The notes beneath the pieces were generated by a model. The model saw only the letters and a program-made list of their open reading frames with translations, was not told the DNA's origin and ran no database searches. The position numbers were made by a program, and so were the translations under genes. DNA of 64,000 nucleotides from NCBI GenBank assembly GCA_022447555.1, contig JAKVBF010000002.1, forward strand, positions 124,001 through 188,000, read 5' to 3'. Positions 14,301 to 60,835 of this stretch are shown piece by piece; the stretch's first letter is position 1, and each line of letters starts with the position of its first letter. This stretch comes from Mariniblastus sp. (GTDB taxonomy: Bacteria > Planctomycetota > Planctomycetia > Pirellulales > Pirellulaceae).

Positions 14301-15128
14301 ACTGATAAAGGGGCTCGAAATGCTCGATAACTCTTCAAGATGAGGACGCATGACATCCGGACCCAAGGCACAATTCATTCCAATACTAAGCATCGGGAAA
14401 TGGGATAGACTATTCCAGAACGCCTCCACCACTTGGCCCGATACAAACGTGGCTCCGGACTCCGCAAAGGTCCCAGAAACCATCACCGGCACACGCCGTC
14501 CTGATTCTTCAAAGTATCGGGCGATCGCGAACAAACAAGCTTTGAGATTGAGCGTATCAATCACGGTTTCGGGAAATAAAAGATCCACTCCACCTTCCAC
14601 CAGCGCTTTGGCCTGAAGGTAGTAAGAACGCTCCATCTCTTCGAAGGTAATGCCGCGAAAAGCAGGGTCTTCGACCTTGGTGGAAATCGCCGTCTGCTGA
14701 GCGGTAGGTCCAATCGAGCCAGCGACGAATCTGGGTTTAAGCGGGGTCTTCGCAGTGTACTCATCGGCGGCCCGACGCGCATTTGCGGCAGCCGCGTGAT
14801 TAATCTCGGTAACGATTTCCGTTGAAAAACCGAAATCCGCCAAACCAACTGGACTCGCATTGAAAGTGTTGGTTTCAATGATATCCGCTCCGGCTGCAAG
14901 ATACTTCCGGTGGATATCCACAATCGAATCCGGGTTGGTTAGGCCCATGATGTCTGTGCAGTTCTTTAGATCGACCGGCCAGTCGGCAAATCGCTCCCCC
15001 CGAACCGCCGCCTCATCAAGACCGAGAGCGTAGATCATGGAGCCCATTGCGCCATCAAGAACGAGAATCTCGCGGTCAAGTCGCTCCAAAATGAGCTGTT
15101 CAGTATTGGTTTTGGAAGCGACAGACAA
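11385..15128 (-). CDS. metH: Cobalamin-dependent methionine synthase
   Basis: The protein has 1247 residues, with all four MetH modules. The homocysteine-binding barrel carries its zinc cysteines at Cys253 (GMNCALGPD) and Cys316-Cys317 ([10 protein letters not shown]). The methyl-folate-binding domain starts near [13 protein letters not shown] (about 365). The B12 domain carries GDVHDIG with the cobalt-ligating His768. The C-terminal reactivation domain includes [15 protein letters not shown], which binds S-adenosylmethionine. The enzyme transfers a methyl group from 5-methyltetrahydrofolate to homocysteine. The start is TTG at 15128, preceded by GAAGG about 10 bases away; no nearby ATG would keep the full barrel. 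I found no cobalamin or SAM riboswitch in the 200 bases upstream. It is divergent from the ATPase gene at 15332. Confidence 0.96.
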
Positions 15129-15331
15129 AGTTCAAACGCCTTCAGGATATCTTTGGTTCGGGAGTGAGTGACCACCCTCCGAAAGGTCTTATGTAAAAGG
15201 TTGACGATTAATCGGATTAAGCGTCGTTGCAATCCTTCTAATTTATCTACTGTTCAAGCCATCCACAATGCGGACCGATCATTTTATCTACGGACTTTTA
15301 AATTCTCGAATGTGATCAATGGATTGAACGC

Positions 15332-16459: not shown

Positions 16460-16630
16460 GCGTCTCCCGAGTTAATCGGATTGGTGTAAGATGTTCTCTA
16501 GCAACCGATCCAAGTCCCGTTCCACTCGACAGCTAAATCATCCACTTTCTGCAGTGAATTACCCCACGGGGTATTGGCTCGCTTTGGCAGTCCGGTAGTC
16601 TGGCCAGAAACAAGAGGACGAGGAGTGATA

Positions 16631-16891
16631 ATGCTTGAAACGGAAATGATAATGATTGCAACATTAACACAATTTTCCGGTTGGCTTGCCGTCATCCATA
16701 GCACGCTACTGTCATTATCGGCGGTAGCCATCACACTGGGTGGAGAGGCTGCGACCAAAATCCGTCAAAGATTGTTCAGATCAGACGAACAGTGCCTAAA
16801 GCCAACTTACTTTCGGTATCTCTCCCAGCTCAAGATTTTAAGAACCTTCTTTTCGATTGTGCCCTATCTCGCCATGAAAATGATGGGATGA
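16631..16891 (+). CDS. Candidate small membrane protein
   Basis: This 86-residue reading frame starts at an ATG preceded by GAGGAG at a 5-base spacing, one of the better ribosome-binding sites in the window. One hydrophobic stretch (WLAVIHSTLLSLSAVAITLGG, about residues 16-36) could span the membrane, followed by a basic segment (KIRQRLFR). It ends 26 bases before the start of the glycosyltransferase gene and would be in the same transcript. I do not recognise a family, and the second half has no obvious pattern, so it may not be real. An alternative view is that the region is the leader of the glycosyltransferase gene. Confidence 0.35.
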   Translation: MLETEMIMIATLTQFSGWLAVIHSTLLSLSAVAITLGGEAATKIRQRLFRSDEQCLKPTYFRYLSQLKILRTFFSIVPYLAMKMMG

Positions 16892-16917
16892 TGGTCTTCG
16901 GTGCGGAGAACCCTATC

Positions 16918-18495: not shown

Positions 18496-18513
18496 CCACG
18501 AGCCCAACAATGA

Positions 18514-19632
18514 TCAGACCCCGAACTCGGGCACCCGAGAGGGTGCAAAAACGGCCATCTCCACAGTGGGCGTTTGCGTCTCGATCAGTTCAGCCATCAA
18601 GACAGCCGTTCCCGTGGATTGTTGCAAACCAACTTTAAAATGACCCGTTGCGACAAATCCATTTTCCCAATTGGGTATCTTTCCTAAATAAGGAAAACCA
18701 TCGTAGGTCGCCGGACGTAAACCGGCCCATGAATTGAGCAACCGTTCCGAAGTCAATTTGGGAATCAGACGCTCAGCAAACTCCTTCAACTCACGGATTC
18801 CCTCTGCTGTGGTCAGACTTTGAAAGCCCGCTTCTTCAGTGGTGGAACCCACCAACAAATGGCCATCCTGACGGGGGACGATATAACGGGAACCCTCATT
18901 CAGGATCGTTTTTAGTACGAATCGCGATGACTGATACAAAAGCATCTGACCGCGGACAGGAATCATCGGCAATTGGATCCCCAGTGGCGATAAGACTTGC
19001 GAGCTCCAAGCGCCCGCGGCAACGCAGAAAACATCTGCGGTGATCCGACGCTCACCTAACCGGATCGCCACCAACTCATTCCCCTGAGTTTCAAATACAA
19101 CCTCTTCCGCATGGCTCACTAAATCCACCCCGCGCAATTGGCAGACCGACTCCAATGCTAGTAGGTGAAGCGGGTTCCGAATCTGAGCTTCTTCCGGAAC
19201 CGACATAGCGGCTCGAATTTGAGAGGTCTCAATAAAGTTGTAACGCTTTGCCAACTCCTTACTTGACATTGGGCAATACTTAATTTGACACTCATCCCAA
19301 AATGACTGTAGCCCCGCTAAGGCTGCTTGCTCCCCAGCACTGCGAGCGAGATAGACCCCTCCACAAACTTGGTAACCATTATCGATGCCGGTTTCGGAAC
19401 GAAGCTCAGCAGACCATTCGGCATGCAATCGATTACTCAGAGCCGTCAACTGTTCTAGCGGATGGACAGCCGTCTGCTCGTTTGCCGGCAGTAAAATTCC
19501 AGCGCCAGCCCACGAAGCCTGTCGTCCAATCCGTCCACGCTCAACCACCGTCACCCGGTGACCGCGCTTGACCAACTCCCAGGCAATCGATAGTCCCACG
19601 ACGCCAGCACCCACGACGATCGAATGGGTCAT
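18514..19632 (-). CDS. thiO: Glycine oxidase ThiO-type FAD-dependent oxidase
   Basis: The protein has 372 residues. The N-terminal SIVVGAGVVGLSIAWELVKRGHRVTVVERG is the dinucleotide-binding GxGxxG motif of the DAO family, and GRQASWAGAGILLP is the FAD-contacting block usual in ThiO. The C-terminal RLLNSWAGLRPATYDGFPYLGKIP, then GFVATGHFKVGLQQSTGTA, closes the FAD site. ThiO oxidises glycine to iminoacetate for the thiazole of thiamine. Its ATG overlaps the stop of the upstream glycosyltransferase by four bases (ATGA), so the two are translationally coupled. thiG and thiS are not nearby, so other D-amino-acid-type substrates remain possible. Confidence 0.85.
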   Translation of the reverse strand: MTHSIVVGAGVVGLSIAWELVKRGHRVTVVERGRIGRQASWAGAGILLPANEQTAVHPLEQLTALSNRLHAEWSAELRSETGIDNGYQVCGGVYLARSAGEQAALAGLQSFWDECQIKYCPMSSKELAKRYNFIETSQIRAAMSVPEEAQIRNPLHLLALESVCQLRGVDLVSHAEEVVFETQGNELVAIRLGERRITADVFCVAAGAWSSQVLSPLGIQLPMIPVRGQMLLYQSSRFVLKTILNEGSRYIVPRQDGHLLVGSTTEEAGFQSLTTAEGIRELKEFAERLIPKLTSERLLNSWAGLRPATYDGFPYLGKIPNWENGFVATGHFKVGLQQSTGTAVLMAELIETQTPTVEMAVFAPSRVPEFGV

Positions 19633-20327
19633 TCAGAGACCTCTAAAAAAGAAGGATCTGGTAAATAGATTTGGATCCGCTCCATCAACCGAAGGTCAGT
19701 AGGATTCCGAGTTGCTTTCAAAGAACGCATTAAATCACGAAGGTCTGTCAAATCGTCTACGTCACACATCGTCGGCAGCTGATCATATGGAACTTGGGCA
19801 GTCTCTAAACGTCGCACGGTTTCTTTTAAAACGCCTTGAGTGCTCCACGGTATCTTATCGAAAAGATCGACTTCGTTCGCCGACAAATGAGTATTTCTGC
19901 CAATCAGGTAATAACCTCCGTCCTCGCTAGGTCCCAGAACAACGGGGGAATGGTCAAGCCTTTTGGATGCCTGAAGAATCATATCAGGCCTCAGGTTGGG
20001 CGTGTCAGATCCAATCACGATCAATTTCCCATCAGCTGGAGTATTTTTGGGACAAGAAAAAAATTGGGATAAACGAGTTCCCAAACCACCTTCGACTTGA
20101 GCCACGTAATTCCAAGCATCTCCAAATTGCTTGACAAATGCATCACGATGCTGATCCGGGGAGTAAACTAACGTTCGCCGGTCACAGCAGTCCATCAAAG
20201 AGGCCGTTAAATGCTCTAAGAAAATCAGATAGAGCTCCGCGGCCGGCTGGTTCCCCAGTCCAGCGGCCAAACGGGTCTTAACCCGCCCGGCCTGCCAGTA
20301 TTTCGCGAAGATACCCAAGTGAGCCAA
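19629..20327 (-). CDS. TIGR04282/DUF2064-type glycosyltransferase
   Basis: The protein has 232 residues of the GT-A nucleotidyl/glycosyl-transferase fold. LGIFAKYWQAGRVKTRLA is the family opening (usually KxPxxGxVKTRL; here YWQAG replaces the proline motif). GDAWNYVAQVEGGLGTRLSQFF, LIVIGSDTPNLRPDMI and VLGPSEDGGYYLIG are the other conserved blocks and include the acidic metal-binding residues. Some members are named for arsenosugar synthesis, but most are uncharacterised. The start is TTG at 20327 with GGAGAGAG about 6 bases upstream. The stop overlaps the thiO start by four bases, which suggests a two-gene operon. Confidence 0.85.
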   Translation of the reverse strand: MAHLGIFAKYWQAGRVKTRLAAGLGNQPAAELYLIFLEHLTASLMDCCDRRTLVYSPDQHRDAFVKQFGDAWNYVAQVEGGLGTRLSQFFSCPKNTPADGKLIVIGSDTPNLRPDMILQASKRLDHSPVVLGPSEDGGYYLIGRNTHLSANEVDLFDKIPWSTQGVLKETVRRLETAQVPYDQLPTMCDVDDLTDLRDLMRSLKATRNPTDLRLMERIQIYLPDPSFLEVSE

Positions 20328-20590
20328 AGAACTCTCTCCAAAACACTAATTTCGTTCAGTAACGAACCGAATTAAACCAATTTGATTTGCTAAATTCGCC
20401 ACAACCGCAAGAATGATAACAGCAGGACTCAAAATGCCGCTTGAAACTTGTCACCCGTTAGCCGGCTGAGGCCCCGACGTCAACTTAGAAGTAGAATAAC
20501 ATTGTCAAAGGAACTTTCGCAGTCCTATTCACTCTATCTTACCGGTCCGTTCCATTTCATTTTCCACCAACAAGTTAAGGTAAATCGCTC

Positions 20591-22657
20591 ATGGCGGAAT
20601 CCAGCGCCAAAACTTTCTTAGGATTGCTTGAACGAAGCGGTATTGCTGCTCCAGAGAAACTCGGTTCAGTGCTGGAGGAACTCGAGAAACAAGCCGATGG
20701 TCAACCGCTGGAACTGGACCAACTGACGCGTCACTTGATCGAAGCCGGAATCATTACCGAATGGCATCGGGACAAACTTGCCGCTGGGAAATACAAAGGG
20801 TTTTTTCTCGGCAAGTATAAACTTCTACGGCATTTGGGAAGTGGCGGAATGAGTACCGTTTATCTCGCAGAAAATAAAATCACTGGACAGAAACGGGCAA
20901 TCAAGGTTCTCCCTCGAAAAAAAGTAAGCGATAAAAGTTTTCTGGATCGCTTTTATCGTGAAGCGAGAGCTGCCGCCGCTCTCGATCACCCCAATATTGT
21001 GCGAGTTTATGACATCTCCAATGTTGACAACACTCACTACATGGTGATGGAGTACGTCGAAGGAGTTGATCTCTACGAGCGCGTTAAGCAAGGTGGACCA
21101 CTACGGCACGAAGCGGCACTGGAGAACGTGCGACAAGCTGCCGTCGGGTTGAATCACGCCCACAATCGCCAATTAATCCATCGCGATATCAAGCCCGCTA
21201 ATCTTTTGCTGACCGATGGAGGAACGGTTAAAATACTTGACCTCGGACTGGCGTTACTTACTGCCGATGATGAAGAGTCACTGACGATCCTGCACAATGA
21301 ACGTGTTATGGGTACGGCCGACTACCTCTCACCCGAACAGGCCGTCAACAGTCACGAGGTGGACCAACGTGCCGACATTTACAGCCTGGGATGCACCCTT
21401 TACTTCCTGTTAACGGGTCAACCGCCTTTTCCCGGCGGGACATTGGCACAACGAATCGCCATGCATCAAACGCAAGAGCCTCAAGAAATCTGCGAGATTC
21501 AAAAAGACTGTCCCCCCGAGGTCAGCCAGTTCTGCGACAGGATGATGAAGAAAAAACCTGGTGATCGCTTCCCCGATGCCAGCACAATCGTCTCCGAAAT
21601 CGAGAGCTACGTAAAAACGGGGGCATTCACAGCAACAAGCTCGCCACGCGGCCAATTCGATTTTGATGTGCCTTCCATCTCGACAAGATCGGCAGCGTCC
21701 GTTGTCTTGACGACAAACTCCGAAAAAGACAGAAACACCACGACACCGAAAACCCAACGCACCGGTGAAAACAAAGTCTCTTCTGCGAAACCGCGCCCCC
21801 AGCGCGCCGGACTCTGGATTTCAATGGGTTCATTGGGCCTATTGTGTACCGTGATTATCATCCTGATTGCCATCCGATTTTCGGGCAACTCTGAACCGAC
21901 ACCATCCGAAATAAATTCAGCCTCGGGCGATCCTATCTCGGGAGTTCCTCTATCAGCAGCCGAGAATCAAACCACGAACGTCGTTGCGGGCTCGTCCGAT
22001 CGCCCCCAAGGACTCTTGTCTAATAACGCTAAACCCAGACTGACCATTGAAGACTTGCGCGCTAAAGAACGGTCAAAACCAGGCAACAAACCAGGCAACA
22101 AACCAGGCAACAAACCAGGCAACAAACCAGCCAACAAACCAGCCAACAAATCAGGCCAGACGGCCGTGATGAACATTGGCTTCGAGGCTGAGTACTTTTT
22201 TAAACCACAAAAAATCTGGGATCTCTATAACAAAAACAAAAAATATGGAACTTTGGGATGCTTTGGCGAAGCCGAGGCGACCAAAGAACCCGGTGCTGCT
22301 CAAAAAGGTCAAGCGGGTCTTCATCTTTACGGCGCCTCCCAACGAGTCGAGTTCCGCCCGGTGAATCAAAACCAAAGGCTGGTCGGGCTCGAGTTTTGGG
22401 TTCGTCTGGAAAACGAGAGTCCCATGACTCAATTTAAGGTGCAGGTGAAATCTTTTAAAAAAGAAGAACGCTGGAAAACCGTATTTACCTATTCACCTGA
22501 CAGCACCCCATCACTCAATACGACTGATTTTACTTTTGTAAAAATTAGCTCGGAGGTTCTCACTAGCAAAAACGCACAAAAAATTCGTTTCAAACTGGAC
22601 GGTCCAGTTCAAAACGGCGCTTTCATTGACAACTTAAAAGTTAGCCTGAAGCAATGA
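20591..22657 (+). CDS. Membrane-anchored Ser/Thr protein kinase
   Basis: The protein has 688 residues. Residues 1-70 are a helical segment of unknown role that runs straight into the kinase domain. The kinase has the glycine loop GSGGMSTV (83-90), Lys105, the catalytic loop HRDIKPAN (197-204, Asp199) and SPEQ (247-250). The magnesium motif is DLG (217-219) rather than DFG. A single membrane segment lies at about 408-430. Outside it is a repeat stalk of KPGN and KPAN units (about 497-521) and a beta-rich C-terminal domain of about 160 residues that I do not recognise. The kinase probably senses an envelope signal and phosphorylates cytoplasmic targets. Its stop overlaps the next gene by four bases (ATGA). 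Confidence 0.92.
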   Translation: MAESSAKTFLGLLERSGIAAPEKLGSVLEELEKQADGQPLELDQLTRHLIEAGIITEWHRDKLAAGKYKGFFLGKYKLLRHLGSGGMSTVYLAENKITGQKRAIKVLPRKKVSDKSFLDRFYREARAAAALDHPNIVRVYDISNVDNTHYMVMEYVEGVDLYERVKQGGPLRHEAALENVRQAAVGLNHAHNRQLIHRDIKPANLLLTDGGTVKILDLGLALLTADDEESLTILHNERVMGTADYLSPEQAVNSHEVDQRADIYSLGCTLYFLLTGQPPFPGGTLAQRIAMHQTQEPQEICEIQKDCPPEVSQFCDRMMKKKPGDRFPDASTIVSEIESYVKTGAFTATSSPRGQFDFDVPSISTRSAASVVLTTNSEKDRNTTTPKTQRTGENKVSSAKPRPQRAGLWISMGSLGLLCTVIIILIAIRFSGNSEPTPSEINSASGDPISGVPLSAAENQTTNVVAGSSDRPQGLLSNNAKPRLTIEDLRAKERSKPGNKPGNKPGNKPGNKPANKPANKSGQTAVMNIGFEAEYFFKPQKIWDLYNKNKKYGTLGCFGEAEATKEPGAAQKGQAGLHLYGASQRVEFRPVNQNQRLVGLEFWVRLENESPMTQFKVQVKSFKKEERWKTVFTYSPDSTPSLNTTDFTFVKISSEVLTSKNAQKIRFKLDGPVQNGAFIDNLKVSLKQ
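22081..22152 (+). repeat. Six 12-bp in-frame tandem repeats in the kinase gene
   Basis: The unit aggcaacaaacc is repeated four times exactly, followed by two units with one or two changes (agcc for aggc, and a final aatc). It encodes the alternating GNKP / ANKP stalk outside the membrane segment of the kinase. Because the unit is a multiple of three and almost identical, copy number could change by slippage without breaking the frame. Confidence 0.95.
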
Positions 22658-24495
22658 CTCTTAAACCATTACCCACAGCTCTAGTTCTCATAGGTTGTTC
22701 CCTTCTTTACCAAGCGGGTCTATCGGACGAACCGACGGCAAAAGAAAAACGGCAGATTAAGACCATTGCCTCCATTCTCGACCGCGCTGGAAGACTGTAC
22801 CAATCGAAAAATTTTGGGGCCTGTAAAGAGAAAGTTTATCAAGCCCAGGCGCAGCTTGAACAACTATCAAAATCAGCGGATGTCGAGCTACTGGAATTGC
22901 TGTCGCCCGAGCACGAACGTCTTGAAATGGCTCATCAATTACTAAAGCAACAAGGGCTTGAGATGCAGGAACTCAAACCACTACCTCGCGCAATGTCTGC
23001 CGATGGAGAGGCCGTCAGCTTTGTAGATTCCGTTGCGCCAATACTCGTGAAACAGTGCGGCCGATGTCATGTTCGCGGGAATCGTGGGGATTTCAGTGCA
23101 GCCAGTTACAACGCGTTAATGCAGAGTACACACATCGCCTCAGGTCTAGCAGATGAAAGTCGACTGATCGAAGTCATTGTCGATGGTGATATGCCCCCGG
23201 GTGGCAATTTCCCCGAAAAAGACTTGGAAATACTCAAAAACTGGATCGCGCAGGGGGCTCGCTACGATGGCGACATGCCGAATCAAAACATCTCTATGCT
23301 CACCTCTGATCCTCCCGAAATGGATCAAGAGCGACTCCAGGTGACTCGATCAACCGGTAAGGAAACCATTTCATTCGGCCTTCACGTCGCACCCGTGCTA
23401 ATTGAGAAATGTGGGCAATGTCACATTGACACCAACAACGTTCGTGGGAATTTCAACATGGCCAACTTTCAACAGTTCCTGCGGGGTGGCGATTCCGGAA
23501 ACCCGTTTGTCCCGGGCAAGTCGAAAGACAGTAACCTGATCAAGCGTTTACGAGGCATCGATTCAGAAGTCATGCCACCCTCCGGGAAACTGGACGACAA
23601 AACCATCGCCCAAATCGCAAAATGGATAGACGAAGGAGCTAAGTTTGATGGTGGTGACAATCCCGATCTAGCGATTCGAACGGTGGCCGCCACCGCTAGA
23701 GCTGGCAAGCAGTCTCACGCAGAATTAATGTCCGAGCGAAATACGCTCACGCGGAAAAATTGGAAGTTGATCATGTCGGACGTGTCTGCTACGGAGAATA
23801 TGACCGAGAACTTCCGAGTGGTTGGAGCGACTCTTCCAGACCGTCTTGAGATCTTTGGCGAACTGGCTGAAAAAATGGCGCCGAAAATCCGGGCAACGTT
23901 CAAAGCTAAATCAGATCGCCCCTTCATAAAAGGTAATACGACGATCTATATCTTTGAGAGACGATATGATTTCAACGAACTCGGTGTGATGCTAACGGGC
24001 CGTGATCTACCCAATCAACTTAGGGGCTATTGGAATTTCAACACCATCGATGCCTATGCGGCTTTGCTGACGGCTCGCAACCGGGACCCAAAAGAGTTTC
24101 AAGCAAATCTGGCACAGCAATTAGGGGCCTTGTACATTTCAAACCTAGCACCCGACATACCGCGCTGGTTCGCTGACGGCGCTGGCTACTGGGCAGCCGC
24201 AAAGCTCTATCCCCGTGACGATGTCGTCAGTCAATGGGACGAACAGGCGGAAGCTGCCGTGGCCAAGATGCAGGAACCAAGTGATTTTGCCACCGGTAAG
24301 CTACCGGAACATGAAGCGGCGCTGGCCGGTTACCTGTTTGTGACCCAGTTGCGAACTGACGCCAGTCGTTTCGCAAAACTGTTTAAGTTCTTGGAATCAA
24401 ACTATTCGTTTGAACGAGCCTTTACCGAAACATTTGGTCAACCGCCCGCTGAATACTTTGGCAAGGGGAACCAACGCCGCAATCGCCGAAACTAG
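22654..24495 (+). CDS. Planctomycete-type cytochrome c lipoprotein with degenerate peptidase-like C-terminus
   Basis: The protein has 613 residues. LVLIGC at 10-15 is a lipobox-like signal. A helical region (28-105) precedes two planctomycete cytochrome c modules: Cys135-GRC-His139 with DMPPGG later, and Cys253-GQC-His257 with VMPPSG later. The methionines are the likely second heme ligands. From about 360 the text resembles the DUF1570-type gluzincin domain (ERRYDFNELG and later IPRWFADGAGYWAA), but LAQQLGALY stands where a HExxH motif is expected, so no zinc protease is likely. It overlaps the upstream kinase gene by four bases, so the two are coupled and may share a function. Role: probably electron transfer or scaffolding in the periplasm. 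Confidence 0.85.
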   Translation: MTLKPLPTALVLIGCSLLYQAGLSDEPTAKEKRQIKTIASILDRAGRLYQSKNFGACKEKVYQAQAQLEQLSKSADVELLELLSPEHERLEMAHQLLKQQGLEMQELKPLPRAMSADGEAVSFVDSVAPILVKQCGRCHVRGNRGDFSAASYNALMQSTHIASGLADESRLIEVIVDGDMPPGGNFPEKDLEILKNWIAQGARYDGDMPNQNISMLTSDPPEMDQERLQVTRSTGKETISFGLHVAPVLIEKCGQCHIDTNNVRGNFNMANFQQFLRGGDSGNPFVPGKSKDSNLIKRLRGIDSEVMPPSGKLDDKTIAQIAKWIDEGAKFDGGDNPDLAIRTVAATARAGKQSHAELMSERNTLTRKNWKLIMSDVSATENMTENFRVVGATLPDRLEIFGELAEKMAPKIRATFKAKSDRPFIKGNTTIYIFERRYDFNELGVMLTGRDLPNQLRGYWNFNTIDAYAALLTARNRDPKEFQANLAQQLGALYISNLAPDIPRWFADGAGYWAAAKLYPRDDVVSQWDEQAEAAVAKMQEPSDFATGKLPEHEAALAGYLFVTQLRTDASRFAKLFKFLESNYSFERAFTETFGQPPAEYFGKGNQRRNRRN

Positions 24496-50482: not shown

Positions 50483-51574
50483 CTATCTTAGATAGCGAGC
50501 TGTCGGATCCATCTGGTCCACGTACCAACTCTGAGAGGAACTACGCCCAGGATCGCGCGCGGTTCCAACCTCGGGAACCAATTGACGCGTGGACAGGTCG
50601 GTTGAAACGCCCCCAACCTCTGCCAGATTGATCGCGGAAACATCACCGGGGCTGGGCATCAACCACAACCGAGAACGATCGCCATAAATTGAATTCACTC
50701 GGTAACTATTAGCATTGATCACCAACTTTGTCGTTTCACCGCTCGATTGTCTGACATACAACTCAATCCGCTTCGGCAAGCTGACCCCGGAGTCGGAATC
50801 GTATTCCTGATTTTTAGAATTCACATAAGCAATCAACTGATTTGACTTATCGTAAAACGCCTGTTGCGTGACAAAACCTCGAGTCGAATCAATCACACAA
50901 ACCCGCTTGGTGGGCCCTTGCGGAGTCATGATCGTTGAGCGGATTTCGATTTGCTTGTCGGGGCGAACGAACGGTTCGGCGTGTTGATCGGTGGGAGAAA
51001 ATTCTACAAAGCCCAGTGCGTCAATGATCCACTGAGGCTCCAAGGGTAACATTTGTCTCATTTTGCTTGATTGGTATTCTGAATGGCGAGCAAAATAAAT
51101 CGCGCTCGGATTATTTGGGGTAGCCACTTTGGACCAAACCCAAAACACCTCCGTATTACTACCCACGTCAATTCCCATATCGGTCATGCCCATTACGCCC
51201 GCCTTCAGTCTCAAACTGTCGGGACGCTCAATCGCCAAGGTCCCTCGCAAGCTCGGCATTCCATCCATCGAAACCTTCACATCTGCCTCAATCTGCGTGG
51301 CTCGATCGGACTGGGTTTGCAAGTGTTGCATCAAGTCAAATTTATTGGGAGCCGTTTGAAATGCAACGGGAACAGAAGTAGGAGCTCGAAATCGCTGAAA
51401 TACCTGACAGCCCGATTGGGAGAGAAAGAAGGCAGCGCATCCTATCAACAAACAGCATCGAAAGTGTCTTGCCCGCACCTCCGAATTAGACGGTTTGAGT
51501 ACATCGAGCGAATTCGCATAGCGCTCTGGAGCGTGGGATTCAGACTTTTGATGAAGGAAGCTTCGACTCATCAT
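50483..51574 (-). CDS. LolA-like / DUF4292-type outer membrane lipoprotein
   Basis: The protein has 363 residues. A long N-terminal part leads into a signal with LIGCAAFFLSQSGC; the final cysteine (about residue 56) is a lipobox position, so it should be lipid-anchored. The mature region (NKFDLMQHLQTQSDRATQIEADVKVSMDG, then LRGTLAIERPDSLRLKAGVMGMTDMGIDVGSN) resembles the incomplete beta-barrel of LolA/LolB and DUF4292 proteins that handle lipids or lipoproteins. The C-terminus (VDQMDPTARYLR) is polar. Its ATG overlaps the stop of the upstream gene by four bases, so the two are translationally coupled. The unusually long segment before the lipobox suggests that the true start may be internal. 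Confidence 0.75.
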   Translation of the reverse strand: MMSRSFLHQKSESHAPERYANSLDVLKPSNSEVRARHFRCCLLIGCAAFFLSQSGCQVFQRFRAPTSVPVAFQTAPNKFDLMQHLQTQSDRATQIEADVKVSMDGMPSLRGTLAIERPDSLRLKAGVMGMTDMGIDVGSNTEVFWVWSKVATPNNPSAIYFARHSEYQSSKMRQMLPLEPQWIIDALGFVEFSPTDQHAEPFVRPDKQIEIRSTIMTPQGPTKRVCVIDSTRGFVTQQAFYDKSNQLIAYVNSKNQEYDSDSGVSLPKRIELYVRQSSGETTKLVINANSYRVNSIYGDRSRLWLMPSPGDVSAINLAEVGGVSTDLSTRQLVPEVGTARDPGRSSSQSWYVDQMDPTARYLR

Positions 51575-52083
51575 TCGTCCCCTCCATCGACGTCCACTTG
51601 CCGATGATCCGTAAACAGTTTCTGCTCCAGCTCGCCCTGAATGATCAATAATTGTTCGGACGTCAAATCTGGCACCCCAATTTCGTAGTTCTTTTTTTGC
51701 GCAGAATCAATCAGCACCATCCGTGGACCTTGATCTCCTTCAGTATTATCAACCAATCTTAAAATTCTTTTCCTGACCAACAATAAACCCATTACGTATT
51801 GCATATCGCCTGATGCTGGCTGTTCCATCAAATGCTCAAAGTAAGCAAGTAGAACATTGCGGGGCGCCCAATAGACACGCCCTTTATCTAAATCGGGAAC
51901 TCGTGACTTCCACCAACCTACACACTCTTCCGGTGGCTCATTCCATTCCTCGAGACCAAAATCGAGCCGCTCGAGGTCATCCTCACGCTGAAGTAACGCG
52001 GAAACGTATTCCTCACCTGTTACAAAATCACGTCCCGTGACGGAACATTTTCGGTTTGACTTTTTGAAATCAAAGCTGGACAA
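51571..52083 (-). CDS. Cytoplasmic protein of unknown function, coupled to the lipoprotein
   Basis: The protein has 170 residues starting at TTG 52083 with no strong binding site. The N-terminus KKSNRKCSVTGRDFVTGEEYVSALLQ has one CxxxG-type pattern but only a single cysteine, so no zinc finger. EWNEPPEECVGWWKSRVPD and QYVMGLLLVRKRILRLVDN are the most structured parts; the rest is charged. No signal peptide or membrane helix is seen. It overlaps the LolA-like lipoprotein gene by four bases; the pair is probably always made together. I recall similar pairs in planctomycetes but no function. Confidence 0.65.
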   Translation of the reverse strand: MSSFDFKKSNRKCSVTGRDFVTGEEYVSALLQREDDLERLDFGLEEWNEPPEECVGWWKSRVPDLDKGRVYWAPRNVLLAYFEHLMEQPASGDMQYVMGLLLVRKRILRLVDNTEGDQGPRMVLIDSAQKKNYEIGVPDLTSEQLLIIQGELEQKLFTDHRQVDVDGGDE

Positions 52084-52614: not shown

Positions 52615-54498
52615 GTGAATCTAAACACTTTTCTCAGCGACGTCGAACGTCATGCAACCGGCTACCGAGCCTTGGAGAATCCCGAGTTGCGAAAAATGGC
52701 ATTGGAGTTGTCATACGAGGCGAAACAGACTGAGACCCAATCGTCGCATTTCATGGCAAAATCGTTTGCACTTGTCAAAGCGACGGCCGAGCGATTTTTA
52801 GAAATGAGCCACTACCCGGTTCAACTGCAGGGCGGACGTGCCATGTGCCAGGGGCATGTCGCAGAAATGCGGACCGGTGAGGGTAAAACATTAACAGCTA
52901 CGCTTCCTCTTTTTTTCCACGCCTTAAAGGGAAAAGGCGCGCTGTTGGCAACCGCCAATGATTATTTGGCCAAGCGCGATGCCCAATGGATGCAACCGGT
53001 TTACGAATCACTCGGCTTGACCACCGGTGTAGTGCAATCAGAAATGTCACGGTCCCAACGTCGAGCGGCCTATCGATGCGACATCACTTATGGAACCATG
53101 AAGGAGTTCGGTTTCGACTTCCTCCGCGACCATTCCTTTGAACGCGAGCGAAAACAAAATCAACTATATTTCGGCTCCGGGCAGGCAGGCGGCACCCAAC
53201 CGTCGGCTGAGCATCAACCCGTTCATCGCACTCCCCATTTCCTGCTCATTGACGAAGCTGACAGCATCTTAATCGACGATGCCCGAACGCCGCTCATTAT
53301 CAGCTCTGCTGAGGATGATGTGACCCATGATCAACAGCGAATGCTCTATCAATGGTCAGCGAAAAGTGTCTCTCATTTTGAAGAAGATCAAGAATACTGG
53401 TATGACAAAGAGCGTAAAAAAGTTGATCTAACACCCGATGGCACCGCTCGGGTCAGAGAATTAGCCAAACCCCAAATTCTCGATGGCGTCGGGCTACCGG
53501 AAATGTATGACTTTGTGGAACGTGCCATTCAGGTTGCACGAGACTATCAACGGAATCGAGACTACGTTGTTCGAGACGGTGAAATTGTGATTGTCGATGA
53601 GTCGACGGGAAGGATTTCTGAAGGCCGTCGTTGGAGTCGTGGAATCCATCAAGCCATTGAAGCCGCAGAAACCGTAGACATCACGATGGACACGAATACC
53701 TCTGCAAAAATCACGGTCCAGTCGTTCGTGAGTCGCTACCCCCTGATTGCAGGCATGACGGGAACGGCCGCCAGCGCCACAAAGGAATTCAAAAAAATCT
53801 ACCAAATGCCTGTCACCATCATTCCACCGAACAGGCCGAGTCAAAAAATTGAGTTGCCGGTCATTTACCGAAAAACAGAAGATGAGAAATGGGCGGCGGT
53901 CGTGGAAGAGATCATCGAAATTCATACGACCCAGCGGCCGATTCTGGTCGGCACTCGGTCCATTGCAAAATCCGAGGTGCTTTCGGAGCTGCTTCATCGA
54001 GCAGGCGTTACGCATGCTGTCCTCAATGCGCGCCAAATTGAACGAGAGGCGGAGATCATCTCATCGGCTGGAGAACATGGTCGTGTGACCGTCGCCACTA
54101 ATATGGCGGGGCGCGGAACGGACATAAAAATTGACGAGCGTGTTAAGGCATCCGGTGGCTTGCACGTCATTTGCACCGAGATGCACGAGTCTGCCCGTGT
54201 GGACCTACAACTCTTTGGTCGTTGTGGCAGGCAAGGAGATCCGGGTTCATTCAGGCAATATGTCTCGGGAGAAGATTCATTACTGGATTCAGCGTACGGC
54301 CGAAAACCGGCGGAAAGATACCGCACAATCGGAAAAATCCGTTCAGACCGATGGTGGATTGAACTGTTCCGAAAAGCTCAGAAAAAGCTTGAGAATCAGC
54401 ATTATCGGGCGCGCAAAATACTCATGTACAACGAGAAGCAACTCGCCAAGTCTCACATCGAGATGGGACTTGATCCAATCTTAGACGTCTACGACTAA
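52615..54498 (+). CDS. SecA-like ATPase lacking the C-terminal third
   Basis: The protein has 627 residues, against roughly 830-1000 for standard SecA. The start is GTG 52615. Both motor domains are present: MRTGEGKT (85-92), the DEAD box LIDEADS (Asp213-Asp216), the preprotein-crosslinking region from about 217, PLIAGMTGTA (377-386), TNMAGRGTDI (495-504) and GRCGRQGDPG (535-544). It ends 80 residues later within the first helix of the helical scaffold (KAQKKLENQHYRARK), so the helical wing, the rest of the scaffold and the zinc-binding tail are absent. No remains of them are visible after the stop. It is followed by two HlyD-type membrane genes on the same strand, suggesting a special export role. 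It could also be a SecA2-type protein. Confidence 0.88.
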   Translation: MNLNTFLSDVERHATGYRALENPELRKMALELSYEAKQTETQSSHFMAKSFALVKATAERFLEMSHYPVQLQGGRAMCQGHVAEMRTGEGKTLTATLPLFFHALKGKGALLATANDYLAKRDAQWMQPVYESLGLTTGVVQSEMSRSQRRAAYRCDITYGTMKEFGFDFLRDHSFERERKQNQLYFGSGQAGGTQPSAEHQPVHRTPHFLLIDEADSILIDDARTPLIISSAEDDVTHDQQRMLYQWSAKSVSHFEEDQEYWYDKERKKVDLTPDGTARVRELAKPQILDGVGLPEMYDFVERAIQVARDYQRNRDYVVRDGEIVIVDESTGRISEGRRWSRGIHQAIEAAETVDITMDTNTSAKITVQSFVSRYPLIAGMTGTAASATKEFKKIYQMPVTIIPPNRPSQKIELPVIYRKTEDEKWAAVVEEIIEIHTTQRPILVGTRSIAKSEVLSELLHRAGVTHAVLNARQIEREAEIISSAGEHGRVTVATNMAGRGTDIKIDERVKASGGLHVICTEMHESARVDLQLFGRCGRQGDPGSFRQYVSGEDSLLDSAYGRKPAERYRTIGKIRSDRWWIELFRKAQKKLENQHYRARKILMYNEKQLAKSHIEMGLDPILDVYD

Positions 54499-54544
54499 CC
54501 ACTCTTATTCGGCTGTTGCTTGTCAGAGCCGTTGAAGAACCTAA

Positions 54545-54570
54545 ACTTGCCTAGAGCACTTGCCTAGAGC
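54545..54570. repeat. 13-bp tandem duplication
   Basis: The sequence acttgcctagagc occurs twice in direct succession in the gap between the SecA-like gene and the GAF-HlyD gene, and is followed by a run of seven A. It is non-coding and may be a simple duplication. Confidence 0.9.
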
Positions 54571-54694
54571 AAAAAAACTATTCCACCTCGTGATTTTCAA
54601 CATGTCGCCGAACGCGCCCCACTTCAGGGTGTCATCTCGCGCGGAATTTTCGTCTTTCAGCCCTATCCGTCCAACTTTTAACCTGTCGTGAATC

Positions 54695-56725
54695 ATGTCA
54701 ACTGGTGAATCCAAACAAACCTATACAGCGGACGAAGTCAAAGCGGAAGTTCGTCAAACGATTGGTCAATTGAGCGAACTATCGCGGTCGGATGTTTCTT
54801 TTGATGAATTCTGTCAAACCGTGCTGACCAAAATTGTAAAGTTAACCGGAGGTCATGCCGCGTTACTCTGGCAGTCGTCTGGAAATAACGACTCTCGAAT
54901 CACTCACAAGGCGGGGCGCCCTGACCTAAATTTACCGCCTGAAAATCTATCTCACGCGGCCGTCATGAACCGCGTCATCGAAGCCAAACAACCGATGGCC
55001 GTTTCGTCGGAAGCCTTGTCACATGACATCAATCCGTTGCAAAATGGCGACGCCTATTTGATCTTGGCGGCTCCCGTTTACAACAGAAAAAAAATATGTT
55101 GTGGCGCGTTAGAACTTCTACAACGCAAGGACATTTCAGAATCTGCTCAACAGGGCTATCTTAAGTTCCTGGCTCGCATTGCAGAACTGTTCCCCCGTTG
55201 GCATGAAAATCAGGAACTTTCTCGACTGAATCAAAACGCCGAGAGCATCTCGTCGACACTCGATTTCGTGACGGAAATTCATCGGTCGATTGACCTCGAT
55301 GAAACCGCATTTGCTATCGCCAATGAAGCTCGTCGGGTCCTTGCTTCTGACCGCGTCAGCATCGCTCGCTGGAACGGCAGCCAATGCAAGATCGTCGCCG
55401 TAAGTAGCCAAGACCGTTTTGATAACCGAGCCAATGTAATCAGGAAATTGGCCGATGTTGCCACCTCCAGTGTAAGCATCGAAACCCCGTTTTGGATCAC
55501 CGGCGAAACCGACGATCTGGCTCCTCGGATTGCGAACCGAATCAACGAGTACATGGATGAATCTCATTGCCGCACACTAGCGGTGATCCCATTGCTTCTC
55601 AAGCCCGAAGAGAATCCAGAACAACAATTCAAGCCGGGGAGCCGCCTCAAGGCTAGGAAGCTTGGAGCCTTGATCATCGAATTCTTCGATGCCGATGTGA
55701 AACAAGAGAGTATTGCCGAACCCTGCAAACTGGTCACCGAGCATTCGGAATTGGCTTTGGCCAACGCAACTCAACACAGCGACATCATCTTGCTCCCTGT
55801 ATGGACGCGACTGGGCAGACTTCAGAAGTTCCTTCTCCGCGATCACTTTACGAAAACGATGACCGGATTGGGTGTCTTTTGTTTCATCCTGCTACTACTC
55901 GCTTTCTATCCGAAAGAACTTCAGATGCGAGTCAATGGCGTGATGCAGCCCCAATTGAGAAAGAATCTGTTTGCCCAAACCGAGGGGATCATACGAGAGG
56001 TATATGTTGACCACGGGTCGGTCGTCAAAAAAGGCGAATTATTGATTGTGATGGAAAACCAAGACCTCGATATGCAGATTTCGCAGGAAGAGTTTCAACT
56101 GGATACGATTCAAGAAGAAATCAAAATGACCAACGTCATGTTGGCTCGACAGACCGATCTGCCTCTAGAAGACTCGATTGCGTTGGGCAATAAGCTAACA
56201 ACGCTCGAAAAGCAAAAGCACAATAAAGAGCGACAACTTGAGCTAATGCTGAAAAAGCGATCTCTACAAAAACTCTACAGTCCTATTGATGGAACGGTCG
56301 TCTTGTGGGAGGCGCGAAAGCGTTTGGAAGATCTCCCGGTCAACGCCAATCAATACGTCTTAGAAATTGCAGCCCTTCAAGGCGGCTGGCAATTGGAGCT
56401 GGACATCCCGCAAAATAAAATCGGCTATGTGAGCGAAGCTCTGAGCCACAGTGGGGATCATCAACTCAATACGGAATTCCGCGTTGCAACCAACCCCAAT
56501 TTACCGCTTGAAGGTGAATTGGTCCGCGTCGCCGATCGAGCAGAGCTTTCAGCAGCCACGGGGACACCCCATTTTCGTGCCGTAGTTGACGCCAACGTGA
56601 AAGAATTATCTGGGTTACGCCCGGGCTCGGGCGTGACAGCGCGAATCAATTGTGGCAAACGATCACTGGGATTCGTGTGGTTTTATCAGGTGATCGACTT
56701 TTTCCGTACGCAAGTGTTCTTTTAA
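54695..56725 (+). CDS. GAF-domain and HlyD-type adaptor fusion protein
   Basis: The protein has 676 residues. Residues about 30-170 and 195-360 look like two GAF-type sensor domains (helical start, then VSIARWNGSQCKIVAVSS, CRTLAVIPLLL and KLGALIIEFF). A single membrane helix follows (about 390-405, VFCFILLLLAF). Outside it is a membrane-fusion adaptor: the lipoyl half LRKNLFAQTEGIIREVYVDHGSVVKKGELL, a coiled coil (about 462-528), the second lipoyl half SPIDGTVVLWEA, and a beta-barrel to the end. Normal HlyD proteins have no large cytoplasmic part, so this one may sense a ligand inside and act in export outside. The next gene starts 26 bases on, so they are probably one operon. Confidence 0.85.
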   Translation: MSTGESKQTYTADEVKAEVRQTIGQLSELSRSDVSFDEFCQTVLTKIVKLTGGHAALLWQSSGNNDSRITHKAGRPDLNLPPENLSHAAVMNRVIEAKQPMAVSSEALSHDINPLQNGDAYLILAAPVYNRKKICCGALELLQRKDISESAQQGYLKFLARIAELFPRWHENQELSRLNQNAESISSTLDFVTEIHRSIDLDETAFAIANEARRVLASDRVSIARWNGSQCKIVAVSSQDRFDNRANVIRKLADVATSSVSIETPFWITGETDDLAPRIANRINEYMDESHCRTLAVIPLLLKPEENPEQQFKPGSRLKARKLGALIIEFFDADVKQESIAEPCKLVTEHSELALANATQHSDIILLPVWTRLGRLQKFLLRDHFTKTMTGLGVFCFILLLLAFYPKELQMRVNGVMQPQLRKNLFAQTEGIIREVYVDHGSVVKKGELLIVMENQDLDMQISQEEFQLDTIQEEIKMTNVMLARQTDLPLEDSIALGNKLTTLEKQKHNKERQLELMLKKRSLQKLYSPIDGTVVLWEARKRLEDLPVNANQYVLEIAALQGGWQLELDIPQNKIGYVSEALSHSGDHQLNTEFRVATNPNLPLEGELVRVADRAELSAATGTPHFRAVVDANVKELSGLRPGSGVTARINCGKRSLGFVWFYQVIDFFRTQVFF

Positions 56726-56751
56726 TCAAACCCTCTCAATAGCTAATTACC

Positions 56752-59004
56752 GTGTCCGTATCCCCACCTCCTGGCCAGCGAAATTCAGGTCCTGTCGTAC
56801 GCATGAAAATGCGTTCCGATTTGACCTGCGATTCCATGACCTATCAGGGGGTCGAGTACTGGGTGGTTAAAGAACCGCTAGGCCAGAAATACTATCAGTT
56901 TCCGCCTCACGTGTTTCATATTCTGCAGCAACTTGATGGCACCAAATCGATTGATGATTTGATCGACAATTTCCACAGCGAAAATGCCCCCAAACGAATC
57001 TCTCGAAGCGAATTGCAGCAACTCTTAACCCGCTTCCACAAAGACGGTTTGGTCATTTCAGATGTGAACGGCCAAGGGATCGAGCTGCTTCGGCGAGGCC
57101 GTAAAAACCTGATCATGGAACGGTTGACGGCCTGTTCTAATATCTTGGCCATACGCTATCGCGGGTTTGATCCGGAGCGGATTTTAAACTGGTTAAATCG
57201 TTGGGTTTGGTGGTTATTCACTCCGACGGCGGTGATTGCGTGGCTTGCTCTAGGGATCATTGCGTTGATGTCCGTGCTCGTAAATTTCGCCGAATTCCAA
57301 GCTCGAATGCCTGGTTTCGAACAGTTTTTTGATGTCAATAAATGGTACATGTTCGTTGGCGTCCTTGCGGTCACCAAAATGCTCCACGAGTTTGGACACG
57401 GACTGGCTTGTAAACGATTGGGGGGAGAGTGCCACGAAATTGGATTCATGCTGCTGGTCCTCACTCCCTGCCTTTACTGTAATGTCTCAGATAGCTGGCG
57501 ACTGCCTAACAAATGGCACCGCGCAGCGATCGGCGCGGCCGGAATGTATGTCGAGCTAATATTAGCGACCATCGCAACCTTCATTTGGTGGTTCGTACAA
57601 CCCGGACTGGTTCAGGATATCTGTCTGCAAATCATGTTGGTCTGCTCCATCAGCACGGTCCTCTTCAACGGCAACCCATTGCTCCGATTTGACGGCTATT
57701 ACATTCTCAGTGATATCCTTGAAATACCCAACATGTATCAAAAATCGACCAAGGCACTCACAACATTGCTAGGTCGTCATTGGCTGGGACTGGAAATCCC
57801 AGACGATCAATTGATGCCAACCAATCGCCCTTGGGCGTTTGCCTCTTACACGGTGGCCGCGTTTTGTTATCGCTGGTTCATCCTATTTTCGATTGTCTGG
57901 TTCCTGATGATTTGGCTGGAACCGTATGGATTAGAGTCGTTAGGCAAGGGAATTGCCATTTTCTCGATGTTTGGAATGTTATTCTGGCCATCATTCAAGT
58001 TATATCGTTACATGGCGGTACCAGGTCGCATGCATCAAATTGAAAAAACTCGTTTCACACTCGGTTTGGCAATCATCGCTGCGGTGTTGTCATCGCTTCT
58101 ACTCATTCCGATCCCCCACTACCTAAGGTGTTCCCTGATTGTTGTACCCGACAAACTGGAAACGATTTATGTGCAGGAACAAGGCATGTTGACAGACTGC
58201 GAAGTCGAAAATGGTGACGTCGTCAAAGAGGGCGACACAATCGCTAAATTGCAAAATCTAGATCTGGAATTAGCTTATCAGGAAGCTGCTGGAAAACTCG
58301 CTTTTAAAATCGGCGAACGAAAGGGACTCGTTCTAAACGGTTCGGCCATCAGCGGCTCTAACAACCTAGAGGAGCTCTCAACGATTGACAGTGAGATCCG
58401 ACAACTGTCGCAAATGGCCAACGATCTCCAACACCGAATAGAACAACTGGAAATCAAAAGCCCTATTTCAGGCACCGTTCTGGCGACGCCTTATCAGCAC
58501 TCGTCTAACGGAGGCCACAACCTTGAAATCATCGATCAACAACCGTTTTTAACCGGCCGTAATGACAACGTATTTGCCACACGAGGTCAACGATTGTGCG
58601 AAGTAGCTAACTTAACCTCATGGTATGCCATCGTGCTACTAGACGAGCAACAGGTCAATTTTGCCGCCGATAATTTACTCACCAAAATCAAGCTATACTC
58701 ACGACCCAATCAAGTCATTGAATCCAAAGTGCAATCGCTTGGCGTTGCCGATCAGTCATTGTTACGGGAAAAGAAAAACAACTTTGACCCAACAGAATTA
58801 AGACGATCGAGTCTGCCCGATCTGGTGACGGAAATGGTTGCGGCCCACCAACATGGCCATATCCAATATTTTGCCCGCGTCCCCATCGATTCGGATGGCA
58901 CACCTTTGAAAATTGGCCTCAGTGGTCAGGCACGCATTTTCACCGGCTATCGCTCGATAGGCTCGCGCCTTTGGTGGTGGATCAACCACAACTTCCTCAG
59001 CTGA
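56752..59004 (+). CDS. M50-type membrane metalloprotease with PqqD-like N-terminus and HlyD-type C-terminus
   Basis: The protein has 750 residues. Residues about 30-105 (YQFPPHVFHILQQLDGTKSIDDLID, then LQQLLTRFHKDGLVI) have the pattern of a PqqD-like winged helix, which in peptide-maturation systems binds leader peptides. Membrane helices follow, with the zinc motif HEFGH (212-216) and a distal NGNPLLRFDGYY (Asp314) as third ligand, as in site-2 proteases. After more helices to about 460, a lipoyl domain (DCEVENGDVVKEGD and SPISGTVLATPYQ) flanks a coiled coil (about 540-565), as in HlyD. The layout recalls YydH-type peptide metalloproteases. The start GTG 56752 has no strong binding site, which suggests coupling to the gene before. 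Confidence 0.87.
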   Translation: MSVSPPPGQRNSGPVVRMKMRSDLTCDSMTYQGVEYWVVKEPLGQKYYQFPPHVFHILQQLDGTKSIDDLIDNFHSENAPKRISRSELQQLLTRFHKDGLVISDVNGQGIELLRRGRKNLIMERLTACSNILAIRYRGFDPERILNWLNRWVWWLFTPTAVIAWLALGIIALMSVLVNFAEFQARMPGFEQFFDVNKWYMFVGVLAVTKMLHEFGHGLACKRLGGECHEIGFMLLVLTPCLYCNVSDSWRLPNKWHRAAIGAAGMYVELILATIATFIWWFVQPGLVQDICLQIMLVCSISTVLFNGNPLLRFDGYYILSDILEIPNMYQKSTKALTTLLGRHWLGLEIPDDQLMPTNRPWAFASYTVAAFCYRWFILFSIVWFLMIWLEPYGLESLGKGIAIFSMFGMLFWPSFKLYRYMAVPGRMHQIEKTRFTLGLAIIAAVLSSLLLIPIPHYLRCSLIVVPDKLETIYVQEQGMLTDCEVENGDVVKEGDTIAKLQNLDLELAYQEAAGKLAFKIGERKGLVLNGSAISGSNNLEELSTIDSEIRQLSQMANDLQHRIEQLEIKSPISGTVLATPYQHSSNGGHNLEIIDQQPFLTGRNDNVFATRGQRLCEVANLTSWYAIVLLDEQQVNFAADNLLTKIKLYSRPNQVIESKVQSLGVADQSLLREKKNNFDPTELRRSSLPDLVTEMVAAHQHGHIQYFARVPIDSDGTPLKIGLSGQARIFTGYRSIGSRLWWWINHNFLS

Positions 59005-59006
59005 TT

Positions 59007-60593
59007 TCAGGACCGGCTGAGAAAGCTATTGGCCGAGTGGACAAAAACTTGACTCGCACCGTATAGCTTCTTCATCTCAATGATTCGCGGCCCAAGAATT
59101 TCATTCAATTTACTGATGTCCTCATCATTGATTGCATCTAATTCGATTTTCACCTTCCTGGTTTCGAGTTGATTTTCAAAGATGATCGCAAGTCCGGCGT
59201 GGCCAACAATATTAAGACGTTCGCTCTCATTGGATTGGGCAAAGGTTTCATAGATCGGCAATGCGCGTTCCCAATCCTGATTCTGAATATGAATTTCGCC
59301 AATGCGCTCAAGTGCAAAGTTGCGGAATAAAATTGTCGTAAAAACCTGGTCAGAGGGAGCTGCCTCGACCGAGAAATAATCCAAAACAGATTCGAAATTC
59401 TCAATGGTTGGGCGGGCGTGAGCAAAACGATATTGTTCCTTGACCGTCGTTCGGCGCGGGATTTTCGGCATATTGTCGACTGCTAACTGTAGTGGATCCT
59501 GTGTCACATTCTGACTGGCCAACCAATTCCCAAGAAGACCGCCGAATAAGGCTAAAGCCAAAAAAATCGTCAATGTAACAGGTCGGGTCCACCAATTTTG
59601 AACATTGCCTTTCATGACCGATTGCAACTGACGAGTCACGGCCAACTTTGATTCGGTGAGCGAAACACCTGCCAACTCGCTTTCAGCACTGGCCAATTTC
59701 TCTATCAACTGCCCCCAATCCTCGTCGAGATCGATACGAATTTTTCGTAGTTCTTTGATCAACACATTACCCGAGCGAGGGCGGTCGTCGGGCAACTTGG
59801 CCATCATCTGGCTTACCACTCCGACCAACTCGATCGGGATATCGGGTCTCACATCCTGCAATGGCTCCGCCTGTTTTTTAATATGTTGCAAGGCGATGGC
59901 CAACGCATTTTCACCATCAAACGGAGGCTCACCCGCCAACATGTGATACGCCGTCACACCCAATGAGTAGATATCGCTTCGAGGATCAACCGGCTTCCCC
60001 TCCACTTGCTCGGGACTCATGTAAAGAGGTGTCCCCATCGTAATGCCGATTTGAGTCAAACCCTGCTGGGTCTGTTCATCGTTAACACGTGCCAGACCAA
60101 AATCGGTAACCTTCACTTCGCCTTTGGTCGAGAGCATTATATTTTCAGGTTTGATGTCCCGATGAATGACATTCATTTCACCTGCCTTTTGCAGGGCCAG
60201 CGCGACCTGCCGCAAAACATTCACCGCCATCACTGGCTCAACGGCCCCGTAGCGTCCGAGGTATTGCCGCAAGTTTCGTCCAGCCACATATTCCTGCGCA
60301 ATGAAATGGTGCCCATCGACTTCACCCACCTCATAAATCTGAACAATATTAGCTTGTACCAACGCAGCCGCTGACTGAGCCTCTCGGTGGAATCGTTGTA
60401 TGTAAGACTGATCCTTGGCCAGTTCTGCATGCAGGATCTTGAGAGCCACATTTCGTTTTAGCGAGACCTGCTCTGCCAAATAAACTTCCGCCATACCGCC
60501 TCGCCCGAGACGTCGAATCACGCGATAGTCCCCCAAAGTCAGACCAGTCAAGTCCTGACTGGGAAAATCGGATTGGCTGCGTTCTGAATTCAT
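59007..60593 (-). CDS. Membrane-anchored Ser/Thr protein kinase
   Basis: The protein has 528 residues from ATG 60593; a TTG at 60644 would add 17 residues without a clear binding site. The kinase core is complete: GRGGMAEV (30-37), Lys52, HRDIKPEN with Asp146, DFG (164-166) and SPEQ. A single membrane helix is at about 338-359. The outer part (about 360-528) is helical, with a TPR-like stretch (RIGEIHIQNQDWERALPIYETFAQSNE). It probably senses an outside or envelope signal. It converges on the M50-HlyD gene with two bases between the stop codons, so it could regulate the export cluster, but this is only position-based. Confidence 0.93.
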   Translation of the reverse strand: MNSERSQSDFPSQDLTGLTLGDYRVIRRLGRGGMAEVYLAEQVSLKRNVALKILHAELAKDQSYIQRFHREAQSAAALVQANIVQIYEVGEVDGHHFIAQEYVAGRNLRQYLGRYGAVEPVMAVNVLRQVALALQKAGEMNVIHRDIKPENIMLSTKGEVKVTDFGLARVNDEQTQQGLTQIGITMGTPLYMSPEQVEGKPVDPRSDIYSLGVTAYHMLAGEPPFDGENALAIALQHIKKQAEPLQDVRPDIPIELVGVVSQMMAKLPDDRPRSGNVLIKELRKIRIDLDEDWGQLIEKLASAESELAGVSLTESKLAVTRQLQSVMKGNVQNWWTRPVTLTIFLALALFGGLLGNWLASQNVTQDPLQLAVDNMPKIPRRTTVKEQYRFAHARPTIENFESVLDYFSVEAAPSDQVFTTILFRNFALERIGEIHIQNQDWERALPIYETFAQSNESERLNIVGHAGLAIIFENQLETRKVKIELDAINDEDISKLNEILGPRIIEMKKLYGASQVFVHSANSFLSRS

Positions 60594-60835
60594 AAACGAA
60601 ACTTTGACATTTTCTGGGTTAGCCAAGGGCGCAGAGTTGGTCAAAAATGCGACGCCTTTACTGACAACAGGATGAATGCGGCGGTTTCAACCTTTTGGTC
60701 ATTTTTGAAAATCTCTTAAGGAAAGATCCCTCTCTTTTCCCTAGCCAGAACCTAGACCGGCCTAATCTGGTATTATACCAGCTTATAAACTAACGTAACC
60801 GTTATAACATCTTTTGCCGAAAACCCATTCCACCT

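Follow-up and report, generated by a model that had tools for sequence, protein, structure and literature searches.

The closest described relative of the system treated here is a locus reported by Kamneva, Poudel and Ward in 2015 (PMC4452313), in which secondary SecA_DEAD proteins without the wing-scaffold domain are encoded beside GAF-HlyD, Peptidase_M50-HlyD and further HlyD proteins, sometimes together with an OEP protein. In the parts of that article covered here, SecA is proposed as the ATPase and the M50 protein as the pore, an operon of Methylobacterium extorquens AM1 is named, and the broader role of the locus is called "completely unknown"; PqqD has no occurrence in them, the words Studholme, LEPR, giant and cargo are absent from the main text, and the legend of Fig 3 mentions neighbours of over 1,000 amino acids (aa). 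We have analyzed a window of 64,000 nucleotides from Mariniblastus sp. (the whole stretch from 124,001 to 188,000 of contig JAKVBF010000002.1), which at 52615-59004 carries three consecutive plus-strand genes for a short SecA, a GAF-HlyD protein and a (PqqD-like)-M50-HlyD protein (Table 1). The match with the Kamneva locus is clear, as this SecA is a second SecA_DEAD protein without wing-scaffold, next to GAF-HlyD and M50-HlyD, so the initial annotation was wrong in taking the system as undescribed.

Our preferred explanation, to which we give a probability of about 0.7, is that the three genes encode the central part, in the inner membrane and periplasm, of an exporter dedicated to large surface proteins with a short N-terminal leader. 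What supports it directly is that the genes are linked, that they co-occur with leader proteins, that the active-site motifs are intact and that the truncation is conserved. The locus type is already known, and the assignment of its cargo is apparently new; what we add to the Kamneva locus is the cargo link, the PqqD-like domain and tests against controls. No paper joining the locus and the leader was found in the literature searched, which lay outside preprints and most subscription papers.

Other known systems resemble the locus in part. Type I secretion (HlyB-HlyD-TolC) shares the HlyD-type adaptors, very large repeat proteins as cargo and possibly the TolC-type channel, but its signals are C-terminal as a rule, while the leader here is N-terminal and a SecA-type ATPase plus an M50 protein stand where the ATP-binding cassette (ABC) transporter would be. 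No ABC transporter was found among the ten window proteins scanned, in agreement with the initial annotation. Accessory SecA2 systems also have a second SecA beside the housekeeping one, but their solved chains extend about 175 residues past the end of the match, a part that is gone here, and the partners in our case are HlyD and M50 proteins.

Linkage of the locus and of leader proteins

One scan of 84,980 species genomes, sensitive to close relatives only, recovered 11 loci with a short SecA, all in Pirellulaceae, and the three-gene order is visible in 10 of them, with the contig of the other ending inside SecA. The nearest named relatives (Mariniblastus metagenome-assembled genomes) have SecAs with 81% and 83% identity. 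Related loci occur elsewhere in Planctomycetota and on alphaproteobacterial plasmids. M50-HlyD was matched in 101 of 294 planctomycete genomes, and 77 of these 101 also have a short SecA. By class, the short SecA is present in 42 of the 52 genomes of this class (counted by frame length) and in 35 of the 51 M50-HlyD-positive genomes outside it; the SecA check that included these 51 covered 59 genomes, eight of them chosen since the frame-length count suggested no short SecA. It is present in none of the 62 M50-negative genomes examined (60 outside the class and two inside), which were hand-picked, one or few per family, from 193 negatives, the 131 others not being itemised. The co-occurrence gives a p value of 1.8e-25, kinship ignored. 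Outside the class, 29 of the 35 genomes have their SecA match at a distance of 519-1131 bases from an M50-HlyD match and six do not, and three long open frames also end like other short SecAs; within the class, the two genes are often apart. The initial annotation had read the three genes as one export-type system that relatives should share; the genes were indeed found together, as one conserved locus, and chance clustering is rejected by the co-occurrence counts and the window controls given below. Many planctomycete genomes carry two or three M50-HlyD paralogues.

The proposed cargo bears a planctomycete export motif. The R. baltica form, RRLxxExLExRxLLA, comes from Studholme 2004, as cited in PMC8567305, and LEPR-XLL (PF07595) is a known form of the motif, called a novel export signal in section 19 of that paper. 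In the passages of PMC8567305 searched, Tuwongella immobilis has 52 genes with a related motif, including 8 of its 10 longest proteins, and the motif figures as a signal whose exporter is not named in section 19. A passage of PMC10868602 notes that Vibrio, too, has a giant protein with LEPR-XLL, about 8,000 aa long. In four loci (L008, L009, L011 and L013), a repeat protein of 754-833 aa is encoded directly 5' of the SecA gene, and its start, a basic stretch followed by LE(E/D)(R/K)xxLA, resembles the R. baltica motif. Windows extending up to 19.5 kb around a short SecA were examined for leader open reading frames (ORFs), defined by a rule set after examples had been seen: 14 of the 52 windows contained one (near-copies among the 52 being L117, L119, L121 and L122, three from one genus), versus none of 38 random windows of the same contigs, two of 40 having been excluded because they overlapped others. 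On matched contigs the counts were 10 of 20 versus 0 of 38 (p 3.5e-6).

At the level of whole genomes, PF07595 gave no match over its cut-off in this genome and matches in 8 of 14 control genomes at E values up to 10; as PF07595 alone is a poor detector, a purpose-built leader profile was used. This profile matched at E < 0.05 in 29 genomes besides this one, of which 20 were judged by eye to have N-terminal leaders (one of those kept, G160, with S replacing E in the motif), the best matches of the nine others being internal or in tiny frames; two of the nine dropped genomes are M50-HlyD-positive. All 20 genomes with a genuine leader carry both M50-HlyD and a short SecA, and they span nine families, the short SecA being seen in 22 of 68 families (p 1e-5). 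By comparison, a leader match judged genuine was found in 0 of the 86 examined genomes without a short SecA (p 6.9e-8, kinship ignored). The Mariniblastus genome itself has at least seven large ORFs with a leader, of 629-1718 aa, one subtilase-like and one RTX-repeat-like, and the locus genes were not found in the three neighbourhoods read around its leader ORFs.

The same association is seen on plasmids of another phylum. In five annotated alphaproteobacterial cases, HlyD and M50-HlyD are preceded by a giant gene (4,033-12,918 aa), with at most two small genes in between, and four of the five have the short SecA; the run often includes DUF3467, a small adaptor or TolC, and a GAF domain was found in the HlyD protein of the one plasmid (L157) where it was looked for. 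Five of the six giant N-termini read contain LEPR-x-LL, and three giants are annotated as "LEPR-XLL domain-containing". M50-HlyD was matched in 82 of 72,556 plasmid records. When four 36-residue leaders were compared with the same records, 13 matched, four of which were the sources, and eight of the nine others are among the 40 M50-HlyD matches listed of the 82. In those eight, the leader lies upstream of M50-HlyD, on the same strand and at a distance of no more than about 37 kb (a stretch that in three records runs over the record start), and one leader frame runs unbroken for 9,022 aa up to an HlyD protein of GAF-HlyD type. The reversed-leader control returned three unrelated places at E 7-8. 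Taken with the planctomycete data, this makes it likely that the locus exports large proteins with an N-terminal LExRxLL(A/S) leader, which is consistent with the large secreted proteins that the initial annotation had imagined as cargo.

Two plasmids show variants of the gene run. Thalassospira plasmid NZ_CP024200.1 (L160) has at 5492-24457 an LEPR-XLL giant, DUF3467, HlyD, M50-HlyD, a small adaptor and TolC in a row. Variovorax plasmid CP063167.1 (L165, 1-29683, with the N-terminus in L170) has a 48.7-kb giant gene whose leader, the sixth N-terminus read, is not LEPR-x-LL and includes ...LEARYMFDAA; behind this gene come TolC, two adaptors, M50-HlyD and, after these, type II secretion-like genes, and the run perhaps represents a sister system with another motor. 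A small DUF3467 protein is encoded between the giant and the exporter genes in L155-L157, L159, L160 and L253, possibly as a cargo chaperone; there is none in L154, where a SapC family gene lies between M50-HlyD and SecA. A second LEPR-type leader protein, annotated as putative Ig domain-containing, is encoded far from the exporter genes of its own plasmid (NZ_CP085155.1:43722-43823).

The truncated SecA and its membrane partners

The short SecA of the window ends after the second motor domain, close to where the long scaffold helix begins, and lacks what we take to be the scaffold/wing, the two-helix finger and the C-tail; the scaffold and finger region expected of a SecA2 accessory system is not kept. 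In 68 short SecAs drawn from Planctomycetota and Alphaproteobacteria, 0-56 residues lie beyond the profile match, versus 179-506 in 12 full SecAs. The Walker A motif is present in 66 of the 68, the exceptions being L161, a fragment, and L176; the DE-x-D (DEAD-type) pattern is present in all 68 and motif VI, by a strict pattern, in 64. A degraded SecA gene is rejected because of this common end point and the intact motifs. On the Rhizobium johnstonii plasmid, the short SecA is split into two overlapping frames (L161:3429-5413). A separate full-length SecA is encoded elsewhere in the Mariniblastus genome, and in an unrooted tree of 63 SecAs one branch (100/100) parts the 12 full from 51 short proteins, with the eight alphaproteobacterial short SecAs in one group. 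Section 15 of PMC4452313, among the parts of it covered here, reaches a similar conclusion on a secondary SecA lineage apart from the housekeeping SecA.

GAF-HlyD has a single hydrophobic segment, residues 384-407, between the GAF region and the adaptor domain, from which we infer the sidedness of its domains across the membrane. The N-terminus of the M50 protein (residues ~15-105) probably folds as a PqqD-like domain, that is, a recognition element for ribosomally synthesized and post-translationally modified peptides (RiPPs), with strands followed by three helices in a weak model (pLDDT, the predicted confidence, 65-83 over most of the domain). PF05402 (PqqD) was called at this place in 7 of 10 M50 proteins scanned, two of them over the cut-off, and also in L157. 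The metalloprotease motif HExxH is present in 68 of 68 family members and the DG-type motif in 65. Both motifs also occur in the daptide and YydH/LiaK M50 proteases (NF041824 and NF058609), which have a related M50 membrane part, but the window's protein falls below their cut-offs (2.2e-50 and 171.9 bits versus a cut-off of 300 bits for NF041824; 1.2e-10 for NF058609), is fused to an HlyD adaptor and is linked with giant proteins. The Foldseek and VIA matches listed span its HlyD part and not the PqqD-like or M50 parts.

Table 1. Genes, domains and motifs of the SecA/HlyD locus, with positions in the window
Feature	Position	Strand	Remark
Short SecA (mini-SecA), 627 aa	52615..54498	+	Both motor domains and preprotein cross-linking domain
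Walker A (TGEGKT)	52873..52890	+	Invariant in A1
DEAD box	53251..53262	+	Invariant in A1
SecA preprotein cross-linking domain (PF01043)	53335..53661	+	Domain match
GAF-HlyD, 676 aa	54695..56725	+	GAF region, hydrophobic segment, then adaptor domain
(PqqD-like)-M50-HlyD protein, 750 aa	56752..59004	+	Start 26 bases after GAF-HlyD
Probable PqqD-like (RiPP recognition element) domain	56794..57066	+	Strands then three helices in model
HEFGH (HExxH) metalloprotease motif	57385..57399	+	Motif
RFDGY, second M50 motif	57685..57699	+	Motif
HlyD/MacA-type adaptor domain of M50 protein	58117..58956	+	Structure match

Candidate export route and competing explanations

The machine is most likely a type-I-like exporter with a SecA-derived motor, in which the PqqD-like domain would read the leader. 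PqqD-like domains read leaders in many peptide-maturation enzymes. Here the leader, a basic stretch followed by LExRxLL-A/S, would stand in for a hydrophobic Sec signal and be bound in the cytoplasm by the PqqD-like domain of the M50 protein, while the short SecA would grip the unfolded chain by its cross-linking domain and push it with ATP. The chain would cross through the M50 membrane part instead of SecYEG, the M50 site may cut the leader, and the GAF domains would have a regulatory role. From there the chain would be led out by the HlyD domains of GAF-HlyD and of the M50 protein, by a small third adaptor and by a TolC-type channel whose gene lies at another place. Such an adaptor is encoded between the other two genes in L117, and the Mariniblastus genome has a homologue of it outside the locus (30% identity, 7e-40); OEP-family proteins are encoded in this genome as well and, on two plasmids, within the gene run, so that components for a route through the envelope are available. 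The strongest form of this proposal is a SecYEG-independent system of two phyla, in which a SecA reduced to motor and clamp would push chains as long as about 13,000 residues through the M50-HlyD conduit; LExRxLL would serve as the address, and a PqqD-like domain taken over from peptide-maturation enzymes would read it. Avoidance of SecYEG we infer because part of SecA is missing, and this full version, including the borrowed PqqD-like domain, is tentative, with slightly less than an even chance.

The main competitor is a hybrid route, in which the short SecA and M50-HlyD hand leader proteins to SecYEG, with the M50 part trimming them and HlyD and TolC acting as a second step. Both motor domains are retained in the short SecA, as is the cross-linking domain; its closest solved structures are SecA2 and SecA, and accessory SecA2 works with SecYEG. 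However, the portion after the second motor domain, which in SecA engages SecY, is missing in 68 of 68 short SecAs, and the strongly basic leaders lack a hydrophobic core: in the 17 tested, the top 12-residue hydropathy mean was 1.3, compared with 2.2 and 2.7 in two window proteins with signal-like starts and 1.1 in a third without a clear one. We therefore regard this route as unlikely, although it is the best of the alternatives.

Far less probable is an efflux complex for small molecules or stress that has repurposed a SecA, the leader link being indirect because locus and leaders are both common in large planctomycete genomes. The HlyD part of the M50 protein does resemble MacA, EmrA and MexA, and one class is rich in the locus as well as in leaders, but this reading has to face the plasmids of another phylum, where the linkage recurs in a same-strand run with the giant, and the lack of leader ORFs in random windows of the same contigs. 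Export of small ribosomally made peptides, suggested by the kinship of the M50 and PqqD-like parts to daptide and epipeptide maturation proteases (both matches under their cut-offs), is the least probable of all, as giant leader genes repeatedly adjoin the locus and the annotations of the plasmid neighbourhoods name neither a radical SAM nor a YcaO gene; the ORFs considered in this analysis were those from 70-90 aa upward.

Several observations weigh against the dedicated exporter as we have drawn it. The window contains no leader ORF; since the leader-bearing cargo is not adjacent to the locus in this genome, the initial annotation could not have seen it. A leader gene is lacking in 38 of the 52 short-SecA windows, and 57 of the 77 short-SecA genomes have no leader match judged genuine among the matches read at E < 0.05. 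The short SecA is in turn missing from 24 of the 101 M50-HlyD-positive genomes, from the 41 kb read in Thalassospira and from the 35 kb read in Variovorax; these two plasmids imply that some systems either do without SecA or draw it from another source. The ninth leader-matched plasmid record, from Terrarubrum, has the giant, DUF3467 and HlyD, but across the 47 kb read there no gene is named as M50. Close kinship is common among the linked genomes and plasmids (three plasmid pairs look alike), PF05402 was not called in the window's own M50 protein, and both structure models are weak (mean pLDDT 56.8 and 65.0). This counter-evidence restricts the association of M50-HlyD loci with leader proteins less than it restricts the view that SecA is the motor in every case.

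Neighbouring genes and significance

Upstream of SecA, a gene with weak LolA-like similarity and a 170-aa gene of unknown family lie in divergent orientation (window 50483-52083, minus strand). Of the 11 loci, nine have the same pair, and two end before that point. The Ser/Thr kinase gene at 59007-60644 is near the locus in L003, L004, L008, L009, L011 and L013 as well, but it was rejected as part of the system because it lies on the minus strand and is not downstream in L006, L007 and L012 (the flank being short in L006 and L007). PEP-CTERM proteins are encoded directly 3' of the locus in two Pirellulaceae (L007:7380-8510 and L009:16625-17629).

If the link holds, the planctomycete export motif, cited since 2004, and the secondary SecA locus, known since 2015, would be joined, and the export signal, for which the passages covered here name no exporter, would gain one. 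Some of the largest bacterial proteins would then have an exporter assigned to them, and SecA would have been rebuilt into another machine.

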